Source: Candidatus Zixiibacteriota bacterium (GTDB lineage Bacteria > Zixibacteria > MSB-5A5 > GN15 > PGXB01). From it: DNA of 64,000 bases. Positions 42,523-48,450 of the stretch are shown in pieces. Each line of letters starts with the position of its first letter. Position 1 is the first letter of the stretch. Under the pieces are notes generated by a model. That model saw only the letters and a program-made list of their open reading frames with translations, did not search any database and was not told the origin of the DNA. The stretch spans positions 1-64,000 of the forward strand of contig JAFGTT010000031.1 in the NCBI GenBank assembly GCA_016933955.1, read 5' to 3'. The position numbers and the translations under genes were made by a program.

Positions 42523-45453
42523 ATGAGCCTAACCTCACATCAAAATGCAAGTTTTGATACCAGGCTGCTTGAGATTGAGGAGCTATACCGCCAAAGAAAG
42601 CCTGATCTCGCCGGTGAGCAGCTGAAAGCCTTGGCTCCTGATGATTTTAAATCGGAGGGATTCGAGCGAGGGCTTTATCTGTTACTTCAGGCGACCGATC
42701 AGCTTCACTCCGGGAATTACAAGGAGTCTATCAGACTTGGGCTGGAAGCCAACAAGTTGCTGGCCTCCTCGGCTTTCCACCTGCGGGTGGGGCAGTTATT
42801 TCTGTTATTGTACAGGAACTATTCCGGTCTGGGTGATTTTAGAAACGCCGAGAGGTATGCTCAGGATGCGCTGGCCTTTTTAAGAAGGGCCGATGACAGC
42901 ATTGGTATGGTGGGGGCGCTGAACGGTTTGGGCAAGCTCGCGTATATTCGCGGAGATTTTTCCAAATCAATTGAATTCATTACCGAGGCTATCGAATTAT
43001 CGCGGGGCGACAATATTCGTATGGCCGAACTGATCGGCAACCTTGGCCGAATCGAGCTTCTGGCCGGTGGTTGGCAGAATGCCGAGGATCATCTGGGAAC
43101 GGCCCTGAAGCTGGCCGGGGAACTCAATCAACCGCTATCAATAGCCCGCGGCTATCTTTCGCTGGGGCACCTTTATTTAAGACAGAGAAAGTTTAACCAG
43201 TCGGCGCAGGAATTCCGGGCGGCCGAGATTTTGATTGAGGCCAATAATTACCGCCGGGACCGGATTATTATGCTTGAGCTTGAAGGTGAACTGGCCTTTG
43301 AGCTGGGTGATATGATTCAGGCCCGAAAGGTTTTGACAAGGGCCTTTGATCTTGGCCGGGAACTGGCCCCGGAATCGGCTTTGATTACCCAGATAACGCG
43401 CCGGATGGCTCAAGTGGAATTGGCTCTTGATAATCTTGATGAAGCTTTGACATTGGCCCAGCGGGCGCTTGATCTGGCGGCCAGGCTGGGAGAAAAAGCC
43501 GAAATAGGTTTGAGCCGGATGATAATCGCCGAGATTTTTTCGGCTCGCGACAATAATCCCTCGGCTTTTGAATATTCGGAAAGCGGTCTTGAGATTCTGC
43601 GCGAAGTCGGTGATCCTTATGATTTGGGCCGGGCGTTGTTGATCCAGGCCAGGATTGCCAGTCAATCCAAGACAATAGGATTGAGCAAGATTGATAAATT
43701 GTTCGATGAGGCGTTCCGGATTTTTAACCAATTGAAATTATTCTACTGGTCGGCTGAAACCAGATTCCGGCAGGGCATTCTTTGCTGTCAATATTCAAGA
43801 ATTTCCAGCGGTTTTAGAAATTTGCTGGAAAGCGAAAAGATTTTTGAAAACATTTCTGAGAAGGCCAAGATTCGATCGGTCCGGCTATTCAAACAGGAAT
43901 TATCCAAGATAGCGGTAACGGCATCACTTTCAGCCGATAATGAATTCAAGATTTTCGGGGATTATTTTACCGAGACGGAATATTCGAACCTGAAAACGGG
44001 CCAAATCCAGAATATAATTGATATACTGAGTCAGCGGACAAGAGCCAGCCGGGTGATTATTTACAAGGCCGGGCAACAGGCTCATGATGCCCTGACCAAT
44101 CTGGATTTAACGCAATTGCAGCGCCGCCGCTTTATCCAGCAATTCGATGATTTGCTGGGCGAGGAATTTAATCCGGACAAACCGACGCTGATTCTTGACA
44201 GCCGGAGAGACCCGTTCATAAACGATCTTCTCCAACCGGGAGGGAACGAGGTCATTTCGAGTGTTATGGTAATTCCGCTTATGATGGGGAAACAGGTTTC
44301 CGGCTATGTTTATCTTGACCGGTTGTCATCGAACGGGGATTTCCGGCCGTTCGGGCAGAAGGAGTTAAATTTCGCGGTCAGTTTTGCCGATTTGATTTCT
44401 CTTAAGATGGCCGAATACGAGAAGTTTCTCCTGGAAGAAGAAAACCGGAGGTTGAAATCCCAGTTAATGGAGGAGGCCGCTTTTCCCAACATTATAACCC
44501 AGAACAAGCAGATGCTGGAAATGCTGGCCAGGGTTCAGCAAGTGGTGAATTCCAATATCTCCATATCCATCGAGGGTGAAACGGGGAGCGGCAAGGATCT
44601 TCTGGCCAAGACGATTCATTACAGTTCCAACCGTAAAGACCGGCGTTTTATTTCGGTTAATTGCGCCGCCCTGCCGGAAACCTTGCTGGAATCGGAGCTT
44701 TTCGGTCATAAGAAGGGCGCTTTTACGGGGGCCGACCGTGACAAAACGGGGCTCTTTGAAGAGGCCAACGGCGGGACTTTTTTCCTCGATGAAATAGCCG
44801 ACATGCCGTTGTCGATTCAGGCTAAGGTTCTTCGTATTCTGGAAGAAAAGGAGATTGTCCGTCTGGGTGAAACCCGGCCGATCAAAGTCGATGTTCGTAT
44901 TATTTCGGCCACCAATAAGGATTTGAAGGTGGAAATGGAGGCCGGTCGGTTTCGCCAGGATTTATATTATCGTTTAACGGCTCTATGTTTTAAGATTCCG
45001 CCGCTTCGTGAGCGAAGGGAAGATATTCCGCTTTTGATCGATCACTTTGCGGAAGAAAAGGTAAAATTCGCGCCGGAGGTTTTGCGAAAGCTGATTACCT
45101 TCGACTGGCCGGGTAATGTCAGGGAACTTGAAAATGAAATAAAGAAATTGATATTACTGACCGGTGAAAAAGGGATTGTCGATGTTAAACTGCTTTCCGG
45201 CAAAATCCTCGACCGGGAGGATCGGGAAGACTCATATGAGATGACTCAGCCGTCGGATGTGAATTTTGACGCCCAATTTTCACTTTACGATTATCTGGCC
45301 CAGTACGAGCGGCGATTCATTATTAAGGCTCTCAGGGAACAGGGCGGGGTTAAGAAACATGCGGCCGCCATTTTGAACATTCCCGAATCAACCCTGCGTC
45401 TCAAAATCAAGCAGTATAATATCGACCTCAAGAACCTGAGTATCTCCGGTTGA
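42523..45453 (+). CDS. TPR-GAF-sigma54-dependent transcriptional activator
   Basis: A 976-residue regulator. TPR-like helical repeats fill about residues 1-450, a GAF-like domain spans about 484-636, and a short coiled coil joins it to an AAA+ domain with Walker A GETGSGKD (near 684), GAFTGA near 731, Walker B FFLDEIAD and the Arg-finger region LRERREDIP. A Fis-type HTH closes it (KKHAAAILNIPESTLRLKIK, near 943). The intact GAFTGA means it should contact sigma54. There is no receiver domain, so the signal is likely a bound ligand or protein. It resembles MalT-like TPR sensors joined to an NtrC-type output. Confidence 0.93.
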   Translation: MSLTSHQNASFDTRLLEIEELYRQRKPDLAGEQLKALAPDDFKSEGFERGLYLLLQATDQLHSGNYKESIRLGLEANKLLASSAFHLRVGQLFLLLYRNYSGLGDFRNAERYAQDALAFLRRADDSIGMVGALNGLGKLAYIRGDFSKSIEFITEAIELSRGDNIRMAELIGNLGRIELLAGGWQNAEDHLGTALKLAGELNQPLSIARGYLSLGHLYLRQRKFNQSAQEFRAAEILIEANNYRRDRIIMLELEGELAFELGDMIQARKVLTRAFDLGRELAPESALITQITRRMAQVELALDNLDEALTLAQRALDLAARLGEKAEIGLSRMIIAEIFSARDNNPSAFEYSESGLEILREVGDPYDLGRALLIQARIASQSKTIGLSKIDKLFDEAFRIFNQLKLFYWSAETRFRQGILCCQYSRISSGFRNLLESEKIFENISEKAKIRSVRLFKQELSKIAVTASLSADNEFKIFGDYFTETEYSNLKTGQIQNIIDILSQRTRASRVIIYKAGQQAHDALTNLDLTQLQRRRFIQQFDDLLGEEFNPDKPTLILDSRRDPFINDLLQPGGNEVISSVMVIPLMMGKQVSGYVYLDRLSSNGDFRPFGQKELNFAVSFADLISLKMAEYEKFLLEEENRRLKSQLMEEAAFPNIITQNKQMLEMLARVQQVVNSNISISIEGETGSGKDLLAKTIHYSSNRKDRRFISVNCAALPETLLESELFGHKKGAFTGADRDKTGLFEEANGGTFFLDEIADMPLSIQAKVLRILEEKEIVRLGETRPIKVDVRIISATNKDLKVEMEAGRFRQDLYYRLTALCFKIPPLRERREDIPLLIDHFAEEKVKFAPEVLRKLITFDWPGNVRELENEIKKLILLTGEKGIVDVKLLSGKILDREDREDSYEMTQPSDVNFDAQFSLYDYLAQYERRFIIKALREQGGVKKHAAAILNIPESTLRLKIKQYNIDLKNLSISG

Positions 45454-45530
45454 ATAAATATTCCCGGCCCAAATTTTTTATGTTTTCTTTTTCGTCCTAT
45501 CTTGTTTAATTATAACAGGAGGTGAAAGTT

Positions 45531-45611
45531 ATGCCAGGCAAAGTACCATCGAAAAAAGAAAAGAAAAAACCGAAAAAGAAAAAAGAAAAGAAAACGGAAA
45601 AAACAGGTTAG
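45531..45611 (+). CDS. 26-residue lysine-rich peptide gene
   Basis: A short frame with a near-perfect ribosome site AGGAGGTG 7 nt before its ATG, a stop at 45609 and an intrinsic terminator 19 nt later. The product starts MPGKVPSKKEKKK and has 15 lysines in 26 residues. It would bind nucleic acid or ribosomes if made; no family is recognised. The initiation and termination signals together make chance unlikely. Confidence 0.6.
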   Translation: MPGKVPSKKEKKKPKKKKEKKTEKTG

Positions 45612-45629
45612 AGTTATTTCCTTAAAATT

Positions 45630-45657
45630 AAGCCCCGTTTTGACGGGGCTTTTTTTA
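45630..45657 (+). terminator. Intrinsic terminator
   Basis: AAGCCCCG pairs with CGGGGCTT (loop TTTTGA), followed by a run of seven T residues. It ends the unit that contains the lysine-rich peptide gene. Confidence 0.9.
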
Positions 45658-45687
45658 TTTTGTCGCCTTTCGGTTCCGAGAAACCGA

Positions 45688-45714
45688 TTGAAATCCGGCG
45701 AGTTTTATTATATT
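45688..45714 (+). promoter_or_regulatory. Promoter immediately before the HIT gene
   Basis: TTGAAA (45688-45693), a 15-nt spacer and TATATT (45709-45714). The start codon is at 45723, so the transcript would begin within 1-3 nt of it, and no ribosome site is present. Confidence 0.45.
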
Positions 45715-45722
45715 ATTGATCT

Positions 45723-46244
45723 ATGGGGAATAAACATATCTGGGCTCCGTGGCGCGCCGAATATATTCTGGGAAAGAAAGAAAAAGGTTGTATCTTCTGT
45801 AATCGTTTGAAAAAGCGAACTGATGAGAAAAATCTGATCGTCTATCGCGGCCCGAAAGTATTCGTGATACTCAACAGATTTCCCTATAACTCGGGTCACA
45901 GCATGGTGGTTCCCAATCGCCATGTCGACAGTCTGAGTGCCCTGACGCATGAAGAGCTGTGCGAATTTATCGACACCATCCGTGTGACGGTTGAGGTTAC
46001 GCGAGAGGCTTTCAATCCGGATTCTTTCAATATCGGAATGAATATGGGTCATGGCGCCGGGGCCGGTATTCCGGAGCATATTCATATGCATGTCGTGCCT
46101 CGCTGGAGTGAGGATACCAATTTCATGCCGGTTATCTGTGACACCGAAGTCGTCTCTTTTCCCCTTGACATGATTTATAAAAAGCTGAAAAAAGGATATG
46201 ATGGACTATGCCTCGGCGGAAAATCCCGACCAAAGCGGAGTTGA
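45723..46244 (+). CDS. HIT-family diadenosine-polyphosphate hydrolase/phosphorylase-like
   Basis: A 173-residue HIT protein. WAPWRAEYI near the start, CIFC, and the triad HIHMHVVPRW followed by TNFMPVI match the Ap4A phosphorylase/FHIT-like bacterial group. It would break down dinucleoside polyphosphates or related nucleotides. Its last 37 nt overlap the start of the aconitase-like gene, which suggests coupled translation. The tail is basic (GGKSRPKRS). Confidence 0.9.
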   Translation: MGNKHIWAPWRAEYILGKKEKGCIFCNRLKKRTDEKNLIVYRGPKVFVILNRFPYNSGHSMVVPNRHVDSLSALTHEELCEFIDTIRVTVEVTREAFNPDSFNIGMNMGHGAGAGIPEHIHMHVVPRWSEDTNFMPVICDTEVVSFPLDMIYKKLKKGYDGLCLGGKSRPKRS

Positions 46245-47830
46245 TCCAGCTTCAAAAACTCTATAAGACCGACGAAAAGATTGCCGAGCGGCTGGGCAAT
46301 ATTTCGCCGCAACTGGTGGCTTACTGGCGGCGGAAGAAAAATATTCCCAAGCATTCTTTCCCCAAGTTTTCGCGGCAGGAAATCGCGGATCTGTGGGAGC
46401 GATTCGGTGATGATTACCGGTGCGGTCTGGAACTGGGGATTTCCAAAGCGGCTTTTTATAACTGGCGGCGTAAGTACGGCCTGAAAGAGAAGCCGGCCTT
46501 TTTGAAGCTGGAGCAGTTGGAACTGGATCTGGGCGGACCCAGCAAAAGTACCGGTCGGAAGGCGAATTACGGTCATCAAACCATCACCCAGAAAATCCTG
46601 GCTGAAACGGCCGGACTGGAGCGGGTCGAACCGGGGGAAATGATCGAAGCGGAGCCGGATCTGGCTCTGTCGAATGATAATACCGAGCAGGTCATAAGGC
46701 AGTTTTTAAGTTTCGGATTAAGCTATGTCTGGAATCCGAACCGGATTGTGATTGCCCTGGATCATAATGCCCCGGTTTCTTCGCTGGCCGCGGCCGAGGG
46801 GCATCGGGCAATCAGGGAATTCGTCAAAAGGCAGAATATAAAGTATTTCTATGATGTTCGGGAGGGTATCTCGCACCAGTTGATTATCGAACGGGGGCAT
46901 ATTCTTCCGGGGCAGTTCGGGGTTGGAACCGATTGCCATGCGACCTCGTATGGAAGTATCGGCGCTTTTGCGACCGGGATCGATACCGAGGAGATGGCGG
47001 CGATCTGGGCCACCGGGAAAATCTGGATCAAAGTCCCGCCGACCATAAAGATTATTATCAACGGCCGGATGCCAATCGGGGTTTTTGCCAAGGATGTTAT
47101 TTTATTCGTGGCCAGTAAGCTGAAATGTGACGGGGCAGTTTACCGGGCGATTGAGTTCAACGGGAACGCGGTCAGCCAGATGTCCATCTCGGAACGTTTT
47201 ACCATGACCAATATGGCCATGGAGTTGAATGCCAAGGCGGCCATATGTTCATTCGATACCATCACCCGCCGTTATCTTTCCGGCCGGACCAAGATGCCGT
47301 ACAGGCCGGCCCTGCCTGATAAGGATGCTCTTTACGATGAAACGTACGAATTCAATATCGATCAACTGGTGCCGCAGATTTCCTGCCCGGATAAGGTGGA
47401 TAACGTTGAGACCGTGGCCGATCGGGCCGGACTGCCGGTGGACCAGGTGGTGATCGGGTCATGTACCAACGGCCGATTTGATGATCTTCGAATTGCCGCA
47501 GATATAATCAAGGATAAGAAAATTCATCCCGAAGTGCGTTTGTTGATATTCCCCGGATCACGGGAAATCTATCTTGAGGCGCTGAAGAAAGGTTTGATCC
47601 GGGCCCTGGTGGAAGCCGGAGCGATGATTATGAGCCCGGGATGCGGTTGTTGTACCGGTCTGCACCAGGGAATTCTGGCAGCCGGGGAGAGATGTCTGGC
47701 CACGACCAATCAAAATTCCCGGGGGCAGATGGGTTCCCCGGAAGCAGAAATATATCTGGTGTCACCTGCCACCGCCGCCGCTTCGGCCCTGCGGGGAGTC
47801 ATCACCGATCCCACCGGTTATTTCAAATAA
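46208..47830 (+). CDS. Aconitase-family large subunit with N-terminal HTH-like fusion
   Basis: A 540-residue protein. Residues 1-100 hold two similar helix-turn-helix-like units (IAERLG-x-ISPQLVAYWRRKKNIP and LELGISKAAFYNWRRKYGLKEKP). The rest follows the aconitase/IPM-isomerase large-subunit fold: D185-H186, D242-C243-H244 where aconitase has Asp-Ser-His, SCTNG with cluster Cys419, and C479/C482 in GCGCC. The substrate-contact arginines of the NRNFxGR segment are Gln502 and Gln507. The family dehydrates and rehydrates 2-hydroxy acids; the substrate here is unknown. AAAGGA precedes the ATG. Confidence 0.8.
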   Translation: MPRRKIPTKAELIQLQKLYKTDEKIAERLGNISPQLVAYWRRKKNIPKHSFPKFSRQEIADLWERFGDDYRCGLELGISKAAFYNWRRKYGLKEKPAFLKLEQLELDLGGPSKSTGRKANYGHQTITQKILAETAGLERVEPGEMIEAEPDLALSNDNTEQVIRQFLSFGLSYVWNPNRIVIALDHNAPVSSLAAAEGHRAIREFVKRQNIKYFYDVREGISHQLIIERGHILPGQFGVGTDCHATSYGSIGAFATGIDTEEMAAIWATGKIWIKVPPTIKIIINGRMPIGVFAKDVILFVASKLKCDGAVYRAIEFNGNAVSQMSISERFTMTNMAMELNAKAAICSFDTITRRYLSGRTKMPYRPALPDKDALYDETYEFNIDQLVPQISCPDKVDNVETVADRAGLPVDQVVIGSCTNGRFDDLRIAADIIKDKKIHPEVRLLIFPGSREIYLEALKKGLIRALVEAGAMIMSPGCGCCTGLHQGILAAGERCLATTNQNSRGQMGSPEAEIYLVSPATAAASALRGVITDPTGYFK

Positions 47831-47918
47831 GGGTCAGCCTTCACATTTTGCAACCCGTTTGTCATTCTGTTTAGCCGCATAAGATTATAGAAGGATTAAG
47901 ATCAACATTTTTCGGATA

Positions 47919-47947
47919 TTGCATCATCAGGGTGCAGTGTGTATATT
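47919..47947 (+). promoter_or_regulatory. Promoter immediately before the small-subunit gene
   Basis: TTGCAT (47919-47924), a 17-nt spacer and TATATT (47942-47947), 8 nt before the ATG at 47956. There is no ribosome site, so a leaderless transcript is possible. Confidence 0.4.
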
Positions 47948-47955
47948 AATATCAT

Positions 47956-48450
47956 ATGAATATGATAATAACCGGAAGGACTGTTCTTCTGGGTGATAAT
48001 ATATCCGCCCGGATGATTTATCCGGATGAAGGCAATAAATCCTTAAATCCGGCGGAAATGGCGGCGCTTTTATTTAACGGGATTGGCGACACCGACCATC
48101 CCCGGTCAAACGTTGATGATATTATCGTGGCCGGGCGCAATTTCGGTATCGGGGATAACAGTCTTCCGGCAATAATGGCTTTACAAGCCGCCGGGATCAG
48201 GGGGATAATCGCGGTTTCGTTCGGACGGTATTTCTTCCGACGGGCCATCAATCATGGTTTGCCGATTATAGAAGCGGAAATGCCGGGAGGGCTTGCCGGC
48301 GGTCAGCAGATCGAGATAAACCTGTCCGGCGGGAAAATATCCTTTCCCGGGGGCGAGAAATTTTTTCAGCCTTATCCTGATTTTATCCTGAGGATTATTG
48401 AAGCGGGCGGATTGATCCCATCGGTGACCGCTGGAGTTTCACGCAGATAA
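47956..48450 (+). CDS. Aconitase-family small (swivel) subunit, active-site motif altered
   Basis: A 164-residue protein with the LeuD-type fold (ILDGR-like start IITGRTVLLGDNI; AVSFGRYFFRRAINHGLPII). The hallmark loop NFGxGSSRE is NFGIGDNSLP (from residue 62): both serines and the Arg that act in catalysis or binding are replaced. Either the enzyme uses other residues for another substrate, or it has lost activity. It most likely pairs with the large subunit 125 nt upstream. A second ATG at 47962 is also possible. Confidence 0.75.
   Translation: MNMIITGRTVLLGDNISARMIYPDEGNKSLNPAEMAALLFNGIGDTDHPRSNVDDIIVAGRNFGIGDNSLPAIMALQAAGIRGIIAVSFGRYFFRRAINHGLPIIEAEMPGGLAGGQQIEINLSGGKISFPGGEKFFQPYPDFILRIIEAGGLIPSVTAGVSRR

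Follow-up and report, generated by a model that had tools for sequence, protein, structure and literature searches.

The closest described counterparts of the protein analyzed here are the large subunits of archaeal-type IPM isomerase and homoaconitase (MJ0499 and MJ1003; structures 4kp1 and 4kp2; family models PRK00402 and hacA_fam). They share its fold (TM 0.93) and are 42 to 45% identical to it in structural alignment, and there is a LeuD-type partner in both cases. However, our protein adds a tandem helix-turn-helix (HTH), and the equivalents of Ser166, Arg447, Arg452, Ser642, and Arg644 have been lost. Many of its relatives are also without the cluster cysteines. In aconitase, Ser642 is the general base (PMC8184944).

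Inactive regulators are already known in the aconitase superfamily. IRP2 lacks both a cluster and aconitase activity (PMC4056636), and it and IRP1 resemble our protein in using a superfamily scaffold as a regulator, which in our case is a prediction. However, in the IRPs the aconitase body itself binds RNA, whereas our protein has a separate tandem HTH. The IRPs are also vertebrate proteins, whereas ours is bacterial, belongs to the LeuC branch rather than to the single-chain aconitases, and has an independent origin. Bacterial enzymes with a second regulatory job are known as well, one example being AcnB (PMC6978683). The intact members of the family described below (f6 and f12 to f14) would be trigger enzymes or moonlighting aconitases of that kind, except that a dedicated HTH is fused here and most fused members gave up catalysis. 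AcnX, like the fused protein, is a superfamily member with altered cluster ligands. However, it is an active dehydratase with a conserved pocket of its own, whereas the fused proteins conserve no replacement pocket, and the window large subunit matches the Pfam AcnX model only weakly (20.8 bits, below the cutoff of 31.5).

The change from enzyme to regulator is known mainly from its endpoints, such as IRP2 and the trigger enzymes. A search of open-access full texts did not find a fusion of HTH and LeuC that survives in intact and degraded stages, and such a fusion is apparently new to the searchable literature.

A LeuC-type large subunit behind a HIT gene

The window is the whole stretch of DNA that was analyzed, 64,000 nucleotides from a Candidatus Zixiibacteriota bacterium. 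A gene at 46208 to 47830 (+) encodes an HTH-LeuC fusion of 540 residues, and its full-length homologues across the order are 43 to 73% identical to it. The start of this gene is overlapped by 37 nucleotides by the 3' end of a HIT-family hydrolase gene (45723 to 46244, +). The hydrolase matches Pfam HIT (1.9e-17), keeps the HIHMH motif, and is Ap4A phosphorylase-like; its match to the NCBIfam ATP adenylyltransferase model (4.7e-41) is below the family cutoff. A degenerate LeuD-type small subunit of 164 residues is encoded at 47956 to 48450 (+), starting 125 nucleotides after the fused gene, and scored 113.9 bits with LEUD_arch (cutoff, 108.95).

Residues 124 to 536 of the large subunit (46577 to 47815, +) are a LeuC/homoaconitase domain with a degraded active site. 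Sequence and fold both place it in the superfamily. The NCBIfam models PRK00402 (3e-157) and hacA_fam (2e-150) matched above their cutoffs, and Foldseek matched the protein to 4kp1, the large subunit of Methanocaldococcus jannaschii IPM isomerase (TM 0.93, normalized by target length).

The N terminus contains a tandem HTH

The initial annotation was silent on residues 1 to 93 (46208 to 46486, +), which lie ahead of the LeuC/homoaconitase domain and in which we found a tandem HTH. In the AlphaFold2 model (mean pLDDT 83 for this part), they form six helices (residues 9 to 19, 22 to 28, 34 to 43, 56 to 66, 69 to 76, and 80 to 90). These make up two similar three-helix units, and the predicted recognition helix of each unit ends in WRR(K). 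With VIA-align, the first half aligned with the DNA-binding domain of GcrA (5yiv) and the second with Fis (3iv5), each over 42 to 43 residues and at a modest Z of 5.3. Nucleic-acid-binding HTH domains and Myb-type domains dominate the listed matches of the two halves. The Pfam models HTH_23 and HTH_Tnp_1 match 28 to 29 of 40 members, mostly below cutoff. No curated HTH family passed its cutoff, the best being HTH_23 with 23.3 to 23.7 bits (cutoff, 24.6). When the N-terminal profile was searched against PDB sequences, the best E value was 0.036, and Foldseek with the HTH domain returned no match at E under 0.001. Alignments and the predicted structure agree on an HTH fold with conserved basic and aromatic recognition helices.

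This part of the protein is nearly invariant within the order, and it can be recognized in all gene-carrying families of the phylum. Its mean entropy is 0.53 bits, compared with 1.62 bits for the LeuC domain, and when the window is compared with four relatives its dN is 0.05 to 0.10. The motif that follows at residues 94 to 107 (46487 to 46528, +), EKPAFLKLEQLELD, is also nearly invariant in alignments across the order.

Catalytic residues are missing from both subunits

The initial annotation had listed altered active-site residues in both subunits and noted that the cluster cysteines are kept, and the translations and alignments bear this out. In the large subunit, D242-C243-H244 (46931 to 46939, +) stands where Asp-Ser-His is canonical. 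The first cluster cysteine, C419 (47462 to 47464, +), is present, and GCGCC at residues 478 to 482 (47639 to 47653, +) keeps cluster cysteines C479 and C482 and has an extra one, C481. The canonical NRNFxGR has become NQNSRGQ, beginning with N501 (47708 to 47728, +), with glutamines at positions 502 (47711 to 47713) and 507 (47726 to 47728) and both substrate arginines lost. The window large subunit is without equivalents of aconitase Ser166, Arg447, and Arg452, and it retains the three cysteines, D185/H186, H223, D242, and H244. Among 54 homologues that have no N-terminal extension, S243, all three cysteines, and R502 are each present in all 54 and R507 in 52. The window changes depart far from this canonical norm.

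In the small subunit, NFGIGDNSLP at residues 62 to 71 (48139 to 48168, +) replaces the NFGCGSSREQ of intact small subunits, which read NFGCGSSREQA. The equivalents of Ser642-Ser643-Arg644-Glu have become Asp-Asn-Ser-Leu, so that GSSRE with its general-base serine is now GDNSL, and the loop YPGKYLPI has become YPDEGNKS. The proposal that change was coordinated on both sides also holds, in the sense that catalytic residues were lost jointly from both subunits; intact pairs keep both sets.

Decay of the small subunit extends beyond these motifs. The window copy is 39 to 40% identical to that of a near relative (G004), compared with 73% for the large subunits, whereas intact copies from different families share 69 to 74% identity. 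A remnant of 137 residues is found in genome G002. Degenerate copies lie nearby in f16 and in some f4 genomes, those of f4 being displaced by some kilobases, and no small subunit was detected at the locus in most members of f4 and of f1, the family of the window. Three f4 homologues (L137, 11316 to 11810; L141, 4851 to 5423; L183, 4862 to 5320) are degenerate and on the strand opposite to the fused gene. The reading frame of the window small subunit remains open, and a heterodimer may still form.

Intact and degraded forms coexist in one phylum

A search with an N-terminal alignment found the fusion in 120 of 132 Zixibacteria genomes, including 76 of the 78 that are at least 90% complete, nearly always as one copy per genome. 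There was no convincing match in 254 genomes outside the phylum. Five of these matched at about 20 to 22 bits only, and one of the five had 11 similarly weak matches, as for a transposase. In a genome-wide scan with peptide patterns, one of them within the HTH domain (WERFGDDY), every full-length relative came from a record of this group, the nearest bearing the GenBank name Candidatus Zixiibacteriota, except for one labeled Ignavibacterium. That Ignavibacterium sp. record (L041) has the sequence of G005, from the window's own family, and its name looks misassigned. The HIT gene was upstream on the same strand in all 60 loci read. It was directly adjacent in most, and most of the 60 had an overlap of 4 or 37 nucleotides.

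The families differ in how much of the active site is left. In f6, f12, f13, and f14, the fused protein has all canonical motifs (GTDSHTTSYG, GSCTNGR, GCGPCLG, and ATTNRNFKGRMGS) and the fused gene adjoins one for an intact small subunit. Individual loci with intact members are L160 to L164 and L152. The motifs are broken to varying degrees in f1, f2, f4, f15, and f16. They are barely or not recognizable in f3, f5, f7 to f10, and f17 to f19, where the protein is often shorter.

We constructed a tree without the active-site loops, leaving out the very degenerate families. The fused proteins were monophyletic (100/100), f1, f2, and f4 formed one clade (100/100), and f15 and f16 formed another next to intact f6 (82/77). 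Because the f1, f2, and f4 clade is separate from the one beside intact f6, catalysis was probably lost at least twice. The window protein, with its cluster cysteines kept and its substrate and small-subunit residues gone, appears to be an early stage of degradation.

A predicted regulator on an isomerase scaffold

The fused protein gives the appearance of an enzyme that is on its way to becoming a gene regulator. We think it probable that the window large subunit is a pseudoenzyme, a predicted DNA-binding regulator built on a dead isomerase scaffold. The ancestral form in the phylum would have been a functional LeuC/homoaconitase-type [4Fe-4S] hydro-lyase of two subunits. Its large subunit would already have gained a tandem HTH, and the gene order would have been HIT, HTH/LeuC, LeuD. 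Catalysis would then have been lost in several lineages, including that of the window. The substrate arginines, the Asp-Ser-His, and the small-subunit general-base serine would have decayed, as would the cluster cysteines in most members, while the HTH and the LeuC fold were held under strong purifying selection. We infer DNA binding and a regulatory role. The two HTHs would bind a conserved DNA element, and the LeuC domain would be an oligomerization scaffold, perhaps still a sensor of a ligand or cluster. The whole would be a factor that acts in transcription or on the chromosome, in connection with the HIT hydrolase. That the HIT protein connects the regulator with an alarmone-type nucleotide is a guess.

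Against the regulatory reading, a search for a DNA target upstream of the HIT operon revealed no inverted repeat above chance and no clear shared operator, and the fold matches of the HTH are modest (Z about 5). The f1 regions before the HIT gene (45460 to 45722 in the window) do share an AGAAACC-ATTTG element followed by an A+T-rich, TATATT-like box, which is possibly a promoter.

Because a single phylum still has intact, half-degraded, and fully degraded forms, all with the same HIT gene ahead of them, the order of events can be read from sequence. If our interpretation is true, this largely uncultured phylum has a lineage-specific, near-universal candidate regulator. It also calls for caution, because the label 3-isopropylmalate dehydratase on such genes, and any leucine synthesis deduced from it, would be misleading.

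Cluster cysteines and a possible sensor

The initial annotation suggested, as one option, a cluster-binding sensor that has no classic turnover. Our best reading is likewise a regulator that does not turn over a substrate. However, cluster binding is not a family trait, because the C419/C479/C482 triplet is complete in 6 of 12 f1 members and in 0 of 18 f4 members. A narrower version of the suggestion covers some members only. In it, the window protein and half of its f1 relatives would bind [4Fe-4S], and the state of the cluster would gate DNA binding as in FNR and IRP1, without turnover. This is a variant of the predicted regulator rather than a competitor, so both can be true, and we hold it tentatively, as a serious possibility that falls short of an even chance.

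In its favor, f1 members have kept cluster cysteines at 23 of 36 positions, compared with 6 of 48 for substrate residues, counts from related sequences that are uncorrected for kinship, so that their P value is no more than indicative. A cluster in the window protein is plausible. Of its two extra cysteines, 243 and 481, the former lies at the site that adjoins the fourth iron in aconitase, and it could be a fourth ligand. However, C243 was seen in the window alone, and the triplet requires six changes on the tree of 44 rows, whereas a family with a general sensor role would be expected to retain the cluster. In four f4 members that form a subclade (L016, L025, L026, and L030), C419 is accompanied by C480-x-C482 instead of C479-x-x-C482, and the new arrangement resembles the Cys508/Cys510 pair of [2Fe-2S] AcnX (PMC8184944).

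A more elaborate account joins all of these elements. In it, the capture of a tandem HTH by a LeuC-type Fe-S isomerase gave rise to a regulator found throughout the phylum, a bifunctional enzyme-regulator stage persists in some families, catalysis was lost repeatedly, and the window protein is now a cluster-gated DNA switch in which C243, in place of the substrate-site serine, is the fourth ligand. We consider this full combination unlikely.

What the HTH might do

The HTH might instead serve chromosome organization, recombination, or RNA binding as in IRP1 and IRP2, with the LeuC domain as a scaffold. Its matches include Fis and the HTHs of transposases and recombinases, and a single-copy, near-universal protein is like a housekeeping factor. 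Aconitases elsewhere do bind RNA (PMC4056636 and PMC6978683). We regard a role outside transcription as rather doubtful, if less so than the full switch account.

The LeuC domain has fixed new residues. There are 22 noncanonical positions that became fixed, eight of them as Lys or Arg. R354, R355, K372, R428, K460, and R465 are fixed or nearly fixed as basic residues in f1, f2, and f4 and are not canonical, and several of these six also occur in the very degenerate f3, f9, f10, f18, and f19. We considered the net charge of the LeuC domain as a sign of a gained DNA-binding face and rejected it. It is higher in fused than in canonical proteins, but among the fused proteins the degraded ones do not exceed those that are intact.

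The former active site is variable

The initial annotation had also proposed that the altered pocket accepts a new substrate. Features that would suit this are the retained cluster cysteines, D185/H186, H223, D242, and H244, and the change in both subunits. However, the replacement residues differ even among the nearest relatives (DCH, DGY, or DPR; NQNSRGQ, NWNFGRG, or ANSSSGQ), so that the new residues are conserved in no relative. Twelve active-site columns have a mean entropy of 2.59 bits in 30 degraded f1 and f4 members, compared with 1.56 for the domain (P = 3e-4), which puts pocket positions among the protein's most variable. The same columns have 0.06 bits in 54 canonical proteins, compared with 1.18 (P = 3e-7). 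We read the change as loss because adaptation to a new substrate should have left a different set of conserved residues. Furthermore, pLDDT drops below 50 in three segments of the LeuC domain in the AlphaFold2 model (residues 187 to 190, 481 to 488, and 503 to 509), all of them former active-site loops, the small subunit has no equivalent of the Ser642 general base, and most relatives have no adjacent small subunit. A new substrate is thus unsupported and, in our judgment, very improbable. Window substitutions that are shared by no relative could in principle be a lineage-specific innovation, and some residual chemistry in the window copy is conceivable given the residues that it retains.

Selection and genome context

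The whole fused protein of the window differs from those of four relatives by a dN of 0.19 to 0.25, with synonymous change saturated or nearly so. Omega is about 0.1 or less where computable, a rough figure owing to that saturation. This is an enzyme homologue that has lost catalytic residues and remains under purifying selection, as expected of a pseudoenzyme. That it is a pseudogene or functionless relic is hardly credible, because the decay of its active site and small subunit is set against an open frame, near-universal presence in the phylum, a nearly invariant HTH, an operon order kept in 60 of 60 loci, and a dN/dS that contradicts it.

The window genome (G000; one assembly, 96.6% complete) has no LeuA homologue by TIGR00973, and on that ground we reject a role for the fused protein in the leucine pathway there. 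It also has no other LeuC/LeuD pair, and it has three single-chain aconitases. Therefore, nothing requires the fused protein as an enzyme. The LeuB model matches isocitrate-dehydrogenase-type proteins in nearly every genome. LeuA matches are also absent from the f12 to f14 genomes, which have an intact fused enzyme.

Two other features lie upstream of the HIT operon. A sigma-54 activator of 976 residues (TPR, GAF, AAA, and Fis-type HTH domains) is encoded at 42523 to 45453 (+). Just 5' of the operon is a micro-ORF for a lysine-rich peptide of 26 residues (MPGKVPSKKEKKKPKKKKEKKTEKTG; 45531 to 45611, +). It has a strong ribosome-binding site, and a hairpin that resembles a terminator lies on its 3' side. 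Similar peptides (MAGKTPTKKEKKKPKK...) occur at the equivalent place in most other f1 loci read.
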